Counted from the first letter of the stretch, positions 33,280-63,519 are shown. The stretch is 64,000 bases of DNA from Candidatus Fermentithermobacillaceae bacterium (GCA_020725645.1 DYEQ01000031.1:62001-126000), one strand, 5' to 3'. The notes: generated from the sequence alone by a model not told the origin. Made by a program: numbers and translations.

Positions 33280-34092
33280 TTGGTACTCGCAGGGCAAGCA
33301 CCTGCCAAGGGGATACTGTTTTTCGCTCCGGAAATGTTTTGGGATTTCGTGCTGGTGGCGCTTCTTTTCATCCTGGTGTACGTCATGATTCGCAGGGCCA
33401 ATGCGGGGCTGCCCATCCCTCGCATTCGAAAGATCGCGGGTCTTGAGGCCATAGACGAAGCTATAGGCCGCGCCACGGAGATGGGTAGACCGGTCCACTT
33501 CACACCGGGGATGAGCGGTTTCGGACCTGAAACCTACGCGGCCCTGGCGACCCTGTCTTATGTCGCCAAGACTGCAGCTCAGTACGATACCAGGCTCATC
33601 GTCACAAACCGTCAGCCCACGGTGCACCCCGTTACTTCCGAAATTGTGAGGCAAGCTTACCTAGAAGCAGGTAGACCGGACGCTTTCAACCAGGACGACG
33701 TGAGGTACCTGTCGGACTGGCAGTTCGGCTACACTTCGGCTGTACTGGGTATATTCCGCCGGGAAAAACCCGCCGCCAACCTCATGTTCGGCTACTGGAT
33801 GGCGGAAGCGCTCATCCTGGGCGAAGCTGGCGCCGAGGCCGGGTGCATTCAGGTGGGCGCCAACACCAATGTATTCCAGATCCACTTCTTCATCGTGACC
33901 TGCGACTATACGCTCATCGGCGAGGAGCAATTCGCCGCCTCCGCTTACCTCTCCAAGGAGCCGATGTTGACTGGAACCGTCGTAGCTCAGGATATGGTGA
34001 AGATCTTAATTGGGCTGCTGGTTTTAGCGGGCTCGGTGTGGGCCACGGTCGCGGGTAACGCTGACAAACTGGTCAAGTTCCTGTCGCAGTAA
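33280..34092 (+). CDS. DUF6754-type membrane protein (operon gene 1)
   Basis: AGGAGG then TTG start; TM-soluble-TM layout; VHFTPGMSGFGPETYAALATLSYVAKTAAQYDTRLIVTN. Confidence 0.75.
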   Translation: MVLAGQAPAKGILFFAPEMFWDFVLVALLFILVYVMIRRANAGLPIPRIRKIAGLEAIDEAIGRATEMGRPVHFTPGMSGFGPETYAALATLSYVAKTAAQYDTRLIVTNRQPTVHPVTSEIVRQAYLEAGRPDAFNQDDVRYLSDWQFGYTSAVLGIFRREKPAANLMFGYWMAEALILGEAGAEAGCIQVGANTNVFQIHFFIVTCDYTLIGEEQFAASAYLSKEPMLTGTVVAQDMVKILIGLLVLAGSVWATVAGNADKLVKFLSQ

Positions 34093-34100
34093 AGGAGGGA

Positions 34101-34742
34101 TTGGGGGTGCAATTGAGAAGACAACTGCCGCTCATTGTCGTATTCGTCACCGCGGTGCTGGTCATGCTGTTCAAATTCGTAAACTTCGGTGAGACCGGCA
34201 AGAATGTCTTGTCTCAGATGGACAAATGGTCACAAGTGACGAGCATCGTGGCGTTTCTCTTGGGACCTATCAACTTGATCAGGCTTCACCTGGGTAACGT
34301 CACCAAAAGGAGGCCCAGGTGGGTACACAGTGCCTTGACCCTAGTTGTCACAGTCGTGTTCACGATCGTGTTCGCTTTGAACGGCTCCAACGGCGAAGTG
34401 ACGCTATGGATCATCAACAACATAGCGATCCAGATCTCCGGCGCGATTTACGCGATGCTGGGTTTCTATATCTGTTCCGCAGCTTACCGGAGCTTCAAGC
34501 TCAGGAACCTTGAGGCGACGGTCCTCCTGCTCTCGGCCGTCATCCTCATGCTGGCTCAGGCACCCATCGGCGAAGAGATCATCCCGGGTATCTCCAAATG
34601 GGGTGAGTGGATCCTGTCGGTTCCCAACTCCGCCGGCATGCGGGGGATACGCCTTGGCGCTGCCATAGGAGCTTTCGCAGCTAGCATCCGGGTAATCCTC
34701 GGTCTTGAGCGAAGCTGGGTCGGTGGAAGCACCGCGGAGTAA
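34101..34742 (+). CDS. Polytopic membrane protein, unknown (operon gene 2)
   Basis: Short intergenic gap after gene 1, Shine-Dalgarno AAAGGAGG, several hydrophobic segments. Confidence 0.75.
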   Translation: MGVQLRRQLPLIVVFVTAVLVMLFKFVNFGETGKNVLSQMDKWSQVTSIVAFLLGPINLIRLHLGNVTKRRPRWVHSALTLVVTVVFTIVFALNGSNGEVTLWIINNIAIQISGAIYAMLGFYICSAAYRSFKLRNLEATVLLLSAVILMLAQAPIGEEIIPGISKWGEWILSVPNSAGMRGIRLGAAIGAFAASIRVILGLERSWVGGSTAE

Positions 34743-34756
34743 GGGGGTGAGCTTAG

Positions 34757-35596
34757 ATGGATTGGGATAAACTCCAGCGTATAGACGTCAGGTGGATCTA
34801 TGCCCTCGTGATCGTCTGTCTCCTGGTGCCGATGTTCTGGCCCCTGGGATTGCCTATCACCATATCGGAGAATACGAGAAAGGTGTGGGAGGCCGTCGAC
34901 AAGCTGCCTCCGGGCTCGGTCATCCTGGTATCCCATGACACCGGTCCCGGAAACGCTCCCGAACTTAACCCCATGCTTTCGGCCCTCGCCAAGCAGGCAT
35001 TCGAGAAGAACTGCAAGATAGTAGGGGTGGCTTTCTTCGACCAGCTGGTGGGGCCGCCCATGTTTCAGGAATACGTGGGCTCGGTAGCTGAAAAGATGGG
35101 GAAGAAGTACGGCGTGGACTGGATCAACCTGGGCTTCAGGCTGAACGCAACGGCGACCATGCGACAAATGTGCGATGACATCCACGGCGCCATGCTCGGG
35201 GTCGACTGGGAGAATAAGTCCCTTTCAGACTTCCCCATCATGAACGAGGTCAAATCCATCAAGGACGATGTGGACCTCATTTTCGTCACAACGGTCGGAA
35301 CGCCCGGGTACGGGGACTGGATGACGTACGTGGCGGAGCCTTTGAAAAAGCCCCTCACGGGCGGCGCATCCCTCACCATGTATTCCGGACTTCAGCAGTA
35401 CATCCGCTCCGGACAGCTCCAGGGATTCCTGGGCGGCCTCAGAGGGGCGGCGGAATACGAGCAACTGGTGGGTGCTCCGGGTAAGGGGTGCTCCGGCATG
35501 GACGCTCAGTCCCTTGGCCACATGATGATCATCGCCTTCCTCATCTTAGGGAACATAGGTTACTTCGCTTCCGCCAGAAAGAAGTCTCGCGCTTGA
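34757..35596 (+). CDS. Membrane-anchored alpha/beta-domain protein, unknown (operon gene 3)
   Basis: N-terminal TM, soluble region SVILVSHDTGPGNAPELNPMLSALAKQAFEKNCKIVGVAFFDQL..., C-terminal TM. Confidence 0.75.
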   Translation: MDWDKLQRIDVRWIYALVIVCLLVPMFWPLGLPITISENTRKVWEAVDKLPPGSVILVSHDTGPGNAPELNPMLSALAKQAFEKNCKIVGVAFFDQLVGPPMFQEYVGSVAEKMGKKYGVDWINLGFRLNATATMRQMCDDIHGAMLGVDWENKSLSDFPIMNEVKSIKDDVDLIFVTTVGTPGYGDWMTYVAEPLKKPLTGGASLTMYSGLQQYIRSGQLQGFLGGLRGAAEYEQLVGAPGKGCSGMDAQSLGHMMIIAFLILGNIGYFASARKKSRA

Positions 35597-35610
35597 GGAG
35601 GTGAACGAGC

Positions 35611-36231
35611 ATGACAGCTGAACAGTGGGGTGCCATTGCGGGCAGCATCTGCATAATCATGGCCTGGTCCTACCTGTTTAAGGAAAGCGACATCTACTAC
35701 TTCGCGGAGCACCTGTTCGTCGGGTTGACCGTCGCCAGGGGGCTTACGTACACCTTCGAGAACCAGTTGAAGCCTCTAGTCCTGAAGGACATGGCGGAGA
35801 AAGGGCAGTGGACGCTCGTGATTCCGGTCGTCATCGGGCTTCTCATATACTGCTGGTTCTTTAAGGGGCTCCGGTGGGTGGCCAGGATCACGATGGGCTT
35901 CTGGATCGGTTATGGGGCCGGTTATAGTTTGGGCTTCAGCCCCCCGGTCTACTTGAAGCAGGTGTTCGATACGTTCACGCCTTTCATCAAGGACGGGCGG
36001 TTCAATTTCGGGGGCGTCCTCTACTTCCTCGTGGTGATCACGGCCCTCATGTACTTCCTGTTTACGGTGAAGAAGGAAAGCGGCGTCCTCAAGTACGGCT
36101 CGATGTTCGGAAGATACGCCTTGATGGTGGCTTTCGGCTCGGCGTACGGCTCCATCACCATGGCTTACCTGTCCTTGGTAATAGGCAAGCTTCAGGTCAT
36201 CTTCAAAGATGCTCTGCATCTGGTGAAATAG
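35611..36231 (+). CDS. Polytopic membrane protein, unknown (operon gene 4)
   Basis: 15-nt gap after gene 3, Shine-Dalgarno GAGGAGG, multiple hydrophobic segments. Confidence 0.75.
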   Translation: MTAEQWGAIAGSICIIMAWSYLFKESDIYYFAEHLFVGLTVARGLTYTFENQLKPLVLKDMAEKGQWTLVIPVVIGLLIYCWFFKGLRWVARITMGFWIGYGAGYSLGFSPPVYLKQVFDTFTPFIKDGRFNFGGVLYFLVVITALMYFLFTVKKESGVLKYGSMFGRYALMVAFGSAYGSITMAYLSLVIGKLQVIFKDALHLVK

Positions 36232-36254: not shown

Positions 36255-36294
36255 ACGGTCGAAGGGACGCCCTTCCGGGTACCCCTTCGACCGT
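36255..36294 (+). terminator. Terminator-like hairpin after the four-gene membrane operon
   Basis: ACGGTCGAAGGG ... CCCTTCGACCGT, perfect 12-bp stem about 25 nt after the last stop; weak T-tract. Confidence 0.65.
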
Positions 36295-36537: not shown

Positions 36538-36888
36538 TGGTGGAGGCGGAGGGAGTCGCACCCTCGTCCGACGATAACCCTGCCTGAGTCTCTACGAGCG
36601 TATCTCCGGCTTTCATCTCGCAACACCAGGCGCCCCGGAGCGGGCTCCTGACGTCGCCAGTCCGGAATCGCTTTCCCCGTCCGGTCCCGGACTACCCCGA
36701 ACAGGTATCCCTCTTGGTGACGGCGTCCCGGGAGCCGGAGGGCACGTCTCCCGGTGCCGTGACTGCTACCTTTTAAGCAGCCAGTGCGTACTGAGTGTTG
36801 GCAGTTATTGTTTTGCCGCTTTTTGATGGGTGCGGCGCCCATGCTCGCTGCTCAAACCCGACTATCGCCGTCGAACCTCGTCGCCCCC
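36538..36888 (-). ncRNA. ssrA: Transfer-messenger RNA (tmRNA)
   Basis: 5' GGGGGCGACGAGGTTCGACGGCG...; 3' GGGTGCGACTCCCTCCGCCTCCACCA; ends pair in an acceptor stem; tag ORF 36773-36817 encodes GKTITANTQYALAA*. Confidence 0.96.
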
Positions 36889-60026: not shown

Positions 60027-62066
60027 CTACGCCACCGCTTCCTTCGTTCGGGGGGTTTTTTCCCAAAGGCGGGGCTCCCGCCCGATAGCCCGGAGAACCA
60101 TTGCGGTGGTGTAGGGTATTGGAAACATGAAAGCGGCCATGGGAAGAATGAAGAGCCCCAGGAATACACCGGCATTGGCCAGAAAACTCGAGGGTTTGAA
60201 ACTCAGGTCGAAGTAACGGCGATATCGCCTGTACGCGTAAAGGGTAAATCCGAGGTAGACAAAGGAGAACACGTTTAAAGCCCATTGTCCTTCAGCTGGA
60301 ATCACCGATGGATCCAGCAGGTTCCTCGCGTAAAGACCCATGGCGATCGGAGGAACAAACGTGGCGCACTGGTACAAAACCCACTCCAGCTGCCCTTTTG
60401 TTATGAGCGCCTTGAGCAACCCTCTACGTTTGACGGGGTCGTCGTAGAACCTCGACACCTTTGATACCACCTGTATGTGCCCGGTACCCCAACGCAGTCG
60501 CTGCCTGAAAAAACTCTTGAAGGTAGGCGGCGTTTGTTCGCTAGAAAAGTAGGGGAGATACTCCGGCCACGCGTTTTCTAAGAGGTAAGCTCTGGTCCCG
60601 AGCTCGAGGTCCTCCGTAAGGACCTGATGGTCCCATCCGCCTATGGCTTTCAGCAGGTCATACGATACGAACAAGTTGGTTCCGCCCACGAACGGCAGGG
60701 TCCGGAACAGCCACGAGAGATACCATTCATGGGCGATGGCCTGGTAAAGGGAGGCGATGCGGCAAAAGGCTGTCATCTGGTAGAAGTTCCTCACCTGGAA
60801 CACGGGCCCCTGAAGTATCCTGCACCGGTCAGGAGCAACGAGCCTCCGGTAAGCTACGTAAAGTAGCACGCATTTTTCGGGGCGGGACTCGGCGTCATAG
60901 AAGCCGCACACCTCTGTCGCGGGGTTAACAAAGCGCAGCGCCCAGTTCAATGCACGACCTTTTGTGGAAGGGCACGAGACGCCGGTACGTCTCCCCGGAA
61001 ACTCGCCGTCGAAGTCATCGGGCACGACGACGTGTTTAACGCAGCGGGCAACCTCGGGCAAAAGACCCTTTCTGACTCTCTCTACCACTTCCTGGGTAGT
61101 TGGAAATAGATCCCTTTGTACTTGCCTGACACGGAGACCGAGCTTTCCCGTTTTGAGATCAACCAGGAGTTCGCTCACCGCAGAACGAGCTATGTGATTT
61201 GTCATGCGCCTTATGATATCCTGGGTAACCCCCTGGTTGGCCCGGGCAGCGCGGCTTATAGCCTTCCGCAAAATGGCATCATCCTCGCCGGCGATGTGGA
61301 TGTAAGCAGCAAGCGCAGGCATGGCGACGACGAGACAGACGGGATACAGTCTTTCCAGGTCAAGCTCGGATAGCCACGGGCAGGTCCGCTTCACACACTG
61401 AATTATCTTGTCCGACGAAGCGCGTCCCCCTGAGGCGTATAGGGTAACCGACACTTCCCTAATCATGGTCTCCCTGGTGGTAGCCGGCAAACTCTGGAGC
61501 TCCGGAACCCCTACGACCGAACCCTCGTGAAAATCTCTGCGCAGGTACTCCTGGAGGGCATAGGAGGCGAGCACCGCCACCATTAGCTCGCGAGCTTTGG
61601 CCTCCTCCTCGGGGGGAATTGGGAACTTTCCCTTTCCGTCTTCGAGACCTCTTGCCATTTCGAGGACTCTTTTAGCTATCCTGGGCCTTGACTTCTTCGC
61701 GGCGATGAGCTCCTTTTCGTCCGTAGCTACTATCACTTCGTACCTGTCCCGCGGATAGGTCAGGGAAAGCATGTGGAGGATGGTGTTCTCGATGACGTCG
61801 GACTCGTTTCGGGCGGGGATTAACAAGCTTATCGTAGGGGTCTCTTTCCCAAGGCGTCGGGCCGTATCACGCAGGTTTTCTTCAGACAGTGCCGGTCGCC
61901 GGCCCCAGTATAATTTGTCGCTATAGTGCTTCCAGAAGAAGAATCTGGCAAAGAGGATGAAGAATATGAGGTAAACAGAGAAGGCACCAAGGTATAGTAT
62001 TTGGGGCAGATCCATTAACAAAAAGGCCTCCTCACTAAACGTTCGTATGACAAAATCGCTAGTCAA
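60027..62066 (-). CDS. Membrane family-2 glycosyltransferase with large insertion in the catalytic domain
   Basis: TISLLIPARNESDVIENTI, EVIVATDE, KGRALNWALRF, FYDAESRP, LTEDLELGTRAYL, RQRLRWGTGHIQ; flanking TM helices. Confidence 0.9.
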   Translation of the reverse strand: MTSDFVIRTFSEEAFLLMDLPQILYLGAFSVYLIFFILFARFFFWKHYSDKLYWGRRPALSEENLRDTARRLGKETPTISLLIPARNESDVIENTILHMLSLTYPRDRYEVIVATDEKELIAAKKSRPRIAKRVLEMARGLEDGKGKFPIPPEEEAKARELMVAVLASYALQEYLRRDFHEGSVVGVPELQSLPATTRETMIREVSVTLYASGGRASSDKIIQCVKRTCPWLSELDLERLYPVCLVVAMPALAAYIHIAGEDDAILRKAISRAARANQGVTQDIIRRMTNHIARSAVSELLVDLKTGKLGLRVRQVQRDLFPTTQEVVERVRKGLLPEVARCVKHVVVPDDFDGEFPGRRTGVSCPSTKGRALNWALRFVNPATEVCGFYDAESRPEKCVLLYVAYRRLVAPDRCRILQGPVFQVRNFYQMTAFCRIASLYQAIAHEWYLSWLFRTLPFVGGTNLFVSYDLLKAIGGWDHQVLTEDLELGTRAYLLENAWPEYLPYFSSEQTPPTFKSFFRQRLRWGTGHIQVVSKVSRFYDDPVKRRGLLKALITKGQLEWVLYQCATFVPPIAMGLYARNLLDPSVIPAEGQWALNVFSFVYLGFTLYAYRRYRRYFDLSFKPSSFLANAGVFLGLFILPMAAFMFPIPYTTAMVLRAIGREPRLWEKTPRTKEAVA

Positions 62067-62150
62067 CCCCGGAATCTGTCCGGTCTCATCGAAGGGTAGT
62101 TTTTCGTTACGACCGGGAGCGCATTCGCAGGGGAAGACAAAGGAAAGAAG

Positions 62151-62175
62151 AGGAGGGGACCGGTCGTCCCCTCCT
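62151..62175 (-). terminator. Rho-independent terminator of the cDPGS-like gene
   Basis: AGGAGGGGAC-cggtc-GTCCCCTCCT hairpin followed on the minus strand by CTTCTTTCCTTTG. Confidence 0.75.
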
Positions 62176-62202
62176 TGAGGCCTTTCGATTGGTCCTTCGA
62201 GG

Positions 62203-63519
62203 CTAAATCGCCCCCGCCATCTTCATGGCGGAGACCAGGTCGGGCGCACCCACTTCCTGAAGCTCATACCTTATCCGCATGGAGGGTTTGTTCATCTTCA
62301 TCACCCTCCTCAGGTCTATGGGGGTGGCGATCAGGACGATATCGCACGGGGTTTTCTCGACGGTCTCCTGAAGCTCCGCTATCTGCTTGGGCGAGTAACC
62401 CATGGCGGGCAGGAGGGGTCCGATCTGCTGGTATTTGGAAAACGCCGCTTTTATGGAACCCGCCGCCCATGGCCTTGGATCGACGAGTTCGCTTGCACCC
62501 CAGCGCCGGGCCGCGACCACGCCGGCGCCATAAGACATTTCTCCATGCGTGAGCGTCGGACCATCTTCGATAACCAGCACCTTCTTGCCCCGGATTTCCT
62601 CGGGGTGCTCGGCGAAAATGGGGGAAGCTGCCTCCACCACGATGGCATCGGTGTTCACCTTCCGGACGTTGTCTCTTACGCGCTCGAGGTTCTCGGGGCT
62701 CGCAGTGTCGATCTTGTTTATCACCACTATCCTGGCCATCCTGAGGTTGGTCTCGCCCGGATGGTAGGACAGTTCGTGACCGGGACGGTGGGGATCGACC
62801 ACGACGATGTGGCAGTCGGACTTGTAGAACGGTATGTCGTTGTTGCCTCCGTCCCAAAGGATGACGTCAGCTTCGGATTCAGCTTGCTTCAGTATCTCAC
62901 CGTAATCCACCCCGGCGAATACGACGTTTCCGCGGTCGATATGGGGTTCGTACTCCTCCCGCTCCTCGATGGTGCACTTGTGTTTGTCGAGGTCATCGTA
63001 GGAGGCGAATCTCTGAACCACTTGCTCGTCGAGCTTTCCGTAGGGCATGGGGTGCCGGATGACCGCCACCTTTTTTCCATGCTCTTTGAGGATTTGGGCG
63101 ACTTTTCTCGTGGTCTGGCTCTTCCCTGCACCCGTTCTGACCGCGCAGACGGATACCACCGGTTTCTTCGACCGCAGCATGGTGCTCTTTAAGCCCAGGA
63201 GCTTAAAATCAGCTCCGGATGCCAGGACCAAGCTCGCCTTATGCATTACGTACTCGTGGGACACGTCACTATAAGCGAAGACGACCTCGTCCACGTCAAA
63301 CTTCTTGATGAGCTCGGGAAGCTCGGATTCCGGATAAATGGGGATCCCCTGAGGATACAAAGGTCCGGACAGCTTGGGAGGATACGTCCTTCCCTCGATG
63401 TCGGGAATCTGCGTCGCGGTAAAGCAGACCACCTGACTTGTCTCGTCGTTCCGGTAGACGGTGTTGAAATTGTGGAAGTCCCGTCCCGCGGCACCCATTA
63501 TGATGACTCTTCTTTTCAC
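62203..63519 (-). CDS. Cyclic 2,3-diphosphoglycerate synthetase-like P-loop protein
   Basis: RVIIMGAAGRDFHNFNTVYRND, VSVCAVRTGAGKSQTTRKVAQIL, DVILWDGGNNDIPFYKSDCHIVVVDPHRPGHEL, VVINKIDTASPEN. Confidence 0.88.
   Translation of the reverse strand: MKRRVIIMGAAGRDFHNFNTVYRNDETSQVVCFTATQIPDIEGRTYPPKLSGPLYPQGIPIYPESELPELIKKFDVDEVVFAYSDVSHEYVMHKASLVLASGADFKLLGLKSTMLRSKKPVVSVCAVRTGAGKSQTTRKVAQILKEHGKKVAVIRHPMPYGKLDEQVVQRFASYDDLDKHKCTIEEREEYEPHIDRGNVVFAGVDYGEILKQAESEADVILWDGGNNDIPFYKSDCHIVVVDPHRPGHELSYHPGETNLRMARIVVINKIDTASPENLERVRDNVRKVNTDAIVVEAASPIFAEHPEEIRGKKVLVIEDGPTLTHGEMSYGAGVVAARRWGASELVDPRPWAAGSIKAAFSKYQQIGPLLPAMGYSPKQIAELQETVEKTPCDIVLIATPIDLRRVMKMNKPSMRIRYELQEVGAPDLVSAMKMAGAI

Follow-up and report, generated by a model that had tools for sequence, protein, structure and literature searches.

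A DUF6754 membrane operon and its MutL-type partner set look like a widespread, undescribed cell-envelope machine

The DNA analysed here is a stretch of 64,000 nucleotides (the window; G000:C100:62001-126000, where G000 is the window's own genome, a 2.1-Mb assembly). It contains four co-directional genes, A to D, and a downstream inverted repeat, at these positions counted from the window's first letter:

33280..34092, plus strand: gene A, TTG start, 270 aa; DUF6754, predicted as transmembrane segment - cytoplasmic alpha/beta domain - transmembrane segment
33406..33486, plus strand: residues 43-69 of A (G..RKIAGLEAIDEAIGRATEMG); putative site of contact with the ATPase module
34107..34742, plus strand: gene B, GTG start, 211 aa; integral membrane protein, ~6 transmembrane segments, without a named family
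34757..35596, plus strand: gene C, ATG start, 279 aa; predicted as transmembrane segment - extracytoplasmic Rossmann-like domain - transmembrane segment, without a named family
35611..36231, plus strand: gene D, ATG start, 206 aa; integral membrane protein, without a named family
36255-36266 / 36283-36294, no strand: perfect 12-bp inverted repeat, arms 16 nt apart

Exactly 14 nt separate each gene from the next, and all four have a Shine-Dalgarno sequence upstream (CCAGGAGGTG, AAAGGAGGG, AAGGGGGTG and TGAGGAGGTG for A, B, C and D, respectively). This agrees with an earlier note, made from the window alone, which had described a tightly spaced four-gene operon closed by a 12-bp hairpin. Gene B has an alternative in-frame TTG start at 34101. 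Because homologous A-B-C-D sets occur in many phyla, the four are true genes and not chance ORFs. Folding the hairpin 3' of D gives a minimum free energy of -37.4 kcal/mol (z = -5.0 relative to shuffled sequences); it lacks a T-run, and terminator prediction did not call it. Since it lies between the operon and a convergent tmRNA gene on the minus strand (36538-36888, tag ANTQYALAA), it could belong to either, and may be a transcript end common to both.

Gene A matches DUF6754 (PF20539) at E 3.7e-88 and 295.4 bits against a cut-off of 27, over profile positions 6-250 of 257, which bears out its initial assignment to this type. For B, C and D no Pfam or NCBIfam family scored above cut-off, and a sequence-profile search returned no solved relative of any of the four proteins. 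Hydropathy divides A and C each into two transmembrane segments flanking a soluble region of ~200 aa, and gives B six transmembrane segments and D at least three, so that B and D are indeed the integral-membrane partners they had been taken for. AlphaFold2 monomer models of C (pLDDT 95.8) and A (pLDDT 91.9) both place a Rossmann-like alpha/beta domain between two transmembrane helices, in keeping with the common layout noticed in both. Positive-inside bias was calculated for 63 homologues of A (K/R 5.0 after the first transmembrane segment vs 1.6 before it) and for 71 homologues of C (K/R 3.4 at the N-terminus and 3.3 at the C-terminus). The soluble domain of A is predicted to be cytoplasmic and that of C extracytoplasmic. 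The idea of two membrane-tethered Rossmann-like modules is supported, with the addition that they are predicted to lie on opposite sides of the membrane.

Foldseek searches of the A and C domains against the PDB gave nothing at E 1e-3 or better, only generic Rossmann-like matches; MurQ, MurR and GmhA (SIS) were among the best of the weak matches of A (E 5e-3 or worse, TM 0.30-0.36). When A and C were compared with each other by hhalign, the alignment was not significant (E 0.046, probability 1%), with the aligned stretch in register with predicted strands and helices. The two proteins have the same types of elements in the same order; their likeness is one of layout and apparent topology, and homology is not established by profile comparison. 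The Rossmann-like domain of A contains conserved acidic and polar residues (E176, E182, Q191, D209, E215, E216). The 90%-conserved lists hold a single cysteine, C208 of A, and none from B, C or D, so A to D carry no conserved FeS motif. In double-membraned phyla the N-terminal extension of A is FN3 (profile matches to solved FN3 domains, e.g. titin, at E 3e-10 and better; Pfam fn3 in 5 of 15), in agreement with an outside N-terminus. The length of this ectodomain varies across homologues from absent to ~700 aa.

Scanning 84,980 species genomes yielded at least 581 relatives of A. The 80 that we kept come from Bacillota, Planctomycetota (including anammox lineages), WOR-3/Stahlbacteria, Cloacimonadota, Zixiibacteriota, Latescibacterota, Gemmatimonadota, Armatimonadota, Edwardsbacteria and others (phyla as labelled in the records). 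Among the A matches listed, the closest named record is a Candidatus Fermentithermobacillaceae assembly whose gene A is 73% identical; records of Symbiobacterium thermophilum, a cultivable carrier, also occur among the matches. Where A genes had enough flanking sequence, we counted 109 complete A-B-C-D runs with median gaps of 11-17 nt, and B is second and D fourth in every one of them. Exceptions to this order are mostly contig ends or gene-calling; one locus reads A-B-D-C. Pairwise distance matrices of the four proteins across the 109 units correlate with r 0.80-0.85, a level reached in none of 500 permutations. To judge from these sequences, A-B-C-D are inherited as one unit and the proteins are evolving together. 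The earlier note had proposed a syntenic, dedicated membrane complex and had named scattering of the genes in relatives as the contrary outcome; the 109 complete runs are what was found instead. It had suggested comparing gene order across Firmicutes, Chloroflexi and archaea; the order is conserved in many bacterial phyla, far beyond Firmicutes. The window's genome itself has two more DUF6754 units, a full A-B-C-D on contig C70 and one on contig C77 that ends within C at the contig end.

ABCD also has a partner set, c7 + c6 + c5, which the first reading of the locus overlooked. In the window's genome these genes lie on another contig (C108, ~61.5-65.0 kb), adjoining tsaE/tsaB/rimI/tsaD-like housekeeping genes:

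C108, about 61475-62596, minus strand: c5
C108, about 62612-64474, minus strand: c6
C108, about 64604-65029, minus strand: c7

The small protein c7 (~115 aa) has no Pfam or NCBIfam family above cut-off. c6 (~610 aa) is a MutL/GlmL-family ASKHA ATPase, with invariant ASKHA phosphate motifs (TDxGSTTTK and VDxGGATTD) and an extra C-terminus of ~115 aa. It matches PF13941 at E 2.1e-126 (422.8 bits vs a cut-off of 27), GlmL NF040745 at E 5.6e-70 (236.4 bits, under the equivalog cut-off of 475) and TIGR01319 at 163 bits (under the cut-off of 204), and by these scores we classify it as a member of the MutL superfamily (PF13941), not as a GlmL equivalog. c5 (~375 aa) appears to combine an RnfC_N/biotinyl-like barrel-sandwich with a KOW-like C-terminus, all sub-threshold; the barrel-sandwich segment is RnfC_N/NqrA-like at E 2.4e-4 and 0.007, below the cut-offs.

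All seven genes form a single run, c7-A-B-C-D-c6-c5, in three Bacillota genomes (G130, G235 and G160), and c7-c6-c5 lie directly upstream of A in several Planctomycetota and FCB-type genomes. At most loci seen, c6 adjoins c5, and two lineages have fused c6-c5 ORFs (L216:2021-4945, 974 aa; L217:3800-6694, 964 aa), one of which matches MutL at E 1.5e-93. Many Bacillota have extra, longer c5 paralogues, each with its own c6. A third c6-c5 pair in the window's genome (C108 ~32.4-38.5 kb; L151:10449-16516), found also at L156, in G234 of the same taxonomic order, shares a strand run with a MacB/FtsX-like ABC transporter (ATPase plus two FtsX-like proteins), so membrane systems of more than one kind may be served by the c6-c5 module. 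On the window's own contig, ~4.8 kb beyond the window's end, lies a fourth and distant gene of the MutL family (G000:C100:130759-131640, E 2.9e-48); it is possibly a true mutase accessory gene. Separately, a weakly conserved small membrane protein adjoins c7 or A at many loci (L152:14432-15190, with homologues in L154, L157, L159, L160, L168, L040, L044, L103, L080 and L112). Its W80 and W156 (alignment numbering) are invariant, and it is a possible eighth member of the system.

We followed the two parts through 300 genomes of the window's phylum; most data in the analysis as a whole come from metagenome assemblies. DUF6754 occurs in 25 of these genomes, and the co-occurrence of the partners with it is near-perfect: c7 is present in 24 of the 25 and in 0 of the other 275, and c5, at E below 1e-100, is present in 24 of the 300, namely 23 of the 25 DUF6754 genomes and one other (a 25th c5 match, at E 9e-4, was left out of this count). 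Fisher p values for association with DUF6754 are 1e-34 for c7 and 5e-31 for c5, with genomes treated as independent and phylogeny ignored. Among 38 genomes of other phyla, picked for carrying DUF6754, c5 occurs in 38 and c7 in 37. The four-subunit envelope complex first proposed is therefore upheld in its synteny and not in being self-contained, since c5 and c7 nearly always accompany it. Copy numbers differ between the two parts: the 38 genomes have 1-7 DUF6754 matches each and never more than one c7, and the same-phylum sample reaches 8 DUF6754 matches (G110) vs one or two c7. As ABCD copies are many and c7 copies one or two, one module appears to serve several ABCD units.

Three genomes depart from this pattern. 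G019, which is 78% complete, has A and c7, with c5 and c6 absent. G095 has a diverged ABCD and lacks c5 and c7, and its c6 relatives are distant GlmL-type only. Its A protein has lost 33 of 59 conserved columns, and the losses are uneven: in residues 43-69, all 14 columns conserved at ≥90% are gone, vs 19 of 45 elsewhere in the protein. Conserved columns were kept at 13 of 18 positions in C, 10 of 17 in D and only 5 of 20 in B, so the losses in G095 are not confined to A. Residues 43-69 are a candidate contact site for the c5/c6/c7 module, an assignment that comes from one lineage, G095. In G009, c5 is present, DUF6754 and c7 are absent, and c6 has an internal gap at model positions 99-225. 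Decay of ABCD or c6 goes with partner loss in both genomes, A having diverged in G095 and c6 having its gap in G009.

The explanation that we favour, and hold to be somewhat probable, is that ABCD forms one membrane complex and serves as the client-specific part of an ATP-driven envelope machine whose other part is a common energising module. B and D would form its membrane core, and the cytoplasmic Rossmann-like domain of A would take up the c5/c6/c7 module, probably via residues 43-69, with c5 (as a soluble adaptor) and c7 joining c6 to this domain. c6 would hydrolyse ATP, as its invariant phosphate motifs suggest, and its ATP-driven hinge motion would travel via A, B and D to C, which lies outside the membrane; in double-membraned bacteria this motion would also reach A's FN3 ectodomain. 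A single energising module could in this way be common to several ABCD units that differ in their ectodomains. We infer physical contact, ATP coupling and the job of the machine, starting from a computed operon with its gene order and co-evolution, the co-occurrence and copy ratio, the c6-c5 fusions and the predicted topologies. As for that job, the likeliest, possible rather than probable, is that a solute or peptide is moved or loaded across the envelope or into it.

The 122 operon-like neighbour genes are functionally mixed, with no dominant pathway or substrate and at most 4 genes per family (amidohydrolases, 4; methyltransferases, 4; ABC ATPases, 3; oligopeptide-transporter C-termini, 3; others). 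A function based on peptidase, OppDF, GcvP or AccAD neighbours was considered and set aside: each is suggestive singly, but lineage-local. Genes for OppD/OppF-type peptide-transporter ATPases lie 3' of D in two Anammoxibacter records and one Gemmatimonadota record (L078:13170-15635, L091:9486-10484 and L093). A gcvPA/gcvPB-type glycine-cleavage P-protein gene lies upstream of c7 in L072:4792-6673, L218:12443-14222, L083, L106, L205 and L206, overlapping c7 in L072 and 2 nt from it in L218; a lipoate-protein ligase gene is nearby in L083, L106, L111 and L206. In the WOR-3-type loci L208, L211 and L213, a ~277-aa gene and an AccA-like gene come after c5, which pair we read as putative acetyl-CoA carboxylase subunits.

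The likeliest rival to an energised machine starts from the family of its ATPase. GlmL-type and diol-dehydratase-reactivase ASKHA proteins maintain or reactivate B12 or radical enzymes, and the known relatives of GlmL are soluble accessory proteins of B12 mutases. They are not transporters, which counts against our reading. ABCD could then be an enzyme bound to the membrane, with c6/c5/c7 as the ATP-dependent chaperone that maintains or reactivates it, one set for all copies. The placement of c6 in the MutL/GlmL family by its PF13941 score and its below-cut-off GlmL score would fit, as would the many conserved acidic and polar residues in the Rossmann-like domain of A and the many ABCD copies per single partner set. 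However, A to D show no catalytic or cofactor-binding motif and no conserved FeS motif, their structural neighbours are generic and weak, and the neighbour genes indicate no single pathway. We consider this enzyme with its chaperone unlikely.

The variable ectodomain of A, absent in some homologues and up to ~700 aa long in others, and its FN3 matches also bring to mind a sensor or adhesion receptor, in which variable FN3 or C-domain ectodomains would detect external cues and relay them by way of A's cytoplasmic domain to the c5/c6 ATPase, one cytoplasmic module being common to multiple paralogues. A receptor would not need two polytopic subunits, though, and no output domain or regulator is conserved alongside (response regulators or kinases are near few loci), so we regard such a role as quite improbable. 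That ABCD is complete and self-sufficient, with c5/c6/c7 merely in the same lineages, is hardly credible: many genomes, the window's included, have ABCD apart from the three genes and G095 keeps it without them, but the c7 distribution, the one-run arrangement in Bacillota, the adjacency in several phyla and the loss of a conserved segment from A of G095 all speak against it.

Other candidates were rejected. A defence or phage origin found no PADLOC match for A-D, c5, c6 or c7; PHROGs gave just two marginal matches, both to c6, and a plasmid search with A gave none. A vWA/BatA reading of A had a BatA N-terminal match at E 0.02, below cut-off, and no MIDAS DxSxS among the conserved columns. A redox (Rnf/NQR) reading was dropped because A to D lack conserved cysteine motifs.

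Returning to the ATP-driven envelope machine, we propose tentatively, on a nearly balanced judgement, that it would form a new class in which a MutL-type ASKHA ATPase, a barrel/KOW adaptor and a small protein energise a modular B-C-D membrane complex by way of the cytoplasmic domain of DUF6754. Equally tentatively, this complex would occur in many bacterial phyla, each genome having 1-8 client-specific copies. A system of seven genes kept together across many phyla, of which one 1.9-Mb genome has as many as eight membrane units, is not likely to be a trivial accessory. Within it, only the MutL-type core of c6, the FN3 segments and the barrel segments have an annotated function; for B, C, D and c7, four of the seven proteins, no Pfam or NCBIfam model scores above cut-off. 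The view that the four genes belong to no known characterised complex still stands: profile searches with A to D and fold searches with A and C gave no solved relative, and in the open-access journal literature no paper naming DUF6754, PF20539 or PF13941 was found, a GlmL search there returning unrelated papers only. Taken together, ABCD and c5/c6/c7 look like a widespread, undescribed cell-envelope machine. We rate it as a categorically new kind of system, which a function found later may place within a known kind. If c6 powers ABCD, an ASKHA-type ATPase would join the known engines that drive membrane machines, and the partner set gives something concrete and testable both to DUF6754 and to a MutL/GlmL branch without a stated role.

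How does this system compare with known ones? Gene A is a full-length, high-scoring member of DUF6754 (PF20539), whereas the Pfam entry has no function and B, C, D and the partner module fall outside it. c6 has the ASKHA core and invariant phosphate motifs of GlmL/MutL (PF13941; NF040745, TIGR01319), and differs in scoring under the NCBIfam cut-offs, in its ~115-aa C-terminal extension and, at the loci examined, in being paired with c5 and a membrane complex. The sub-threshold RnfC_N/NqrA-like barrel-sandwich of c5 beside a multi-subunit membrane complex recalls Rnf/Na+-NQR, but A to D lack a conserved FeS-type cysteine motif, and against Pfam and NCBIfam they gave no NqrB/RnfD/E/A match, B having one sub-threshold NuoJ match (E 0.028). 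ECF (group II) transporters have one energising module in common to several dispersed membrane units and are built from ABC-type A, T and S subunits. The gene layout of ABCD and c5/c6/c7, many units and one module, resembles theirs by analogy, not homology: the partner ATPase is MutL/ASKHA and not ABC, the membrane unit has four genes, and A to D have no Pfam match to ECF S or T components up to E 1. MacB/FtsX mechanotransmission differs in the family of its ATPase, and ABCD has no Pfam ABC permease match. It is nevertheless like our system in that energy from cytoplasmic ATP is proposed to reach a module on the extracytoplasmic side, and a paralogous c6-c5 pair shares a strand run with a MacB/FtsX-like transporter in two genomes.
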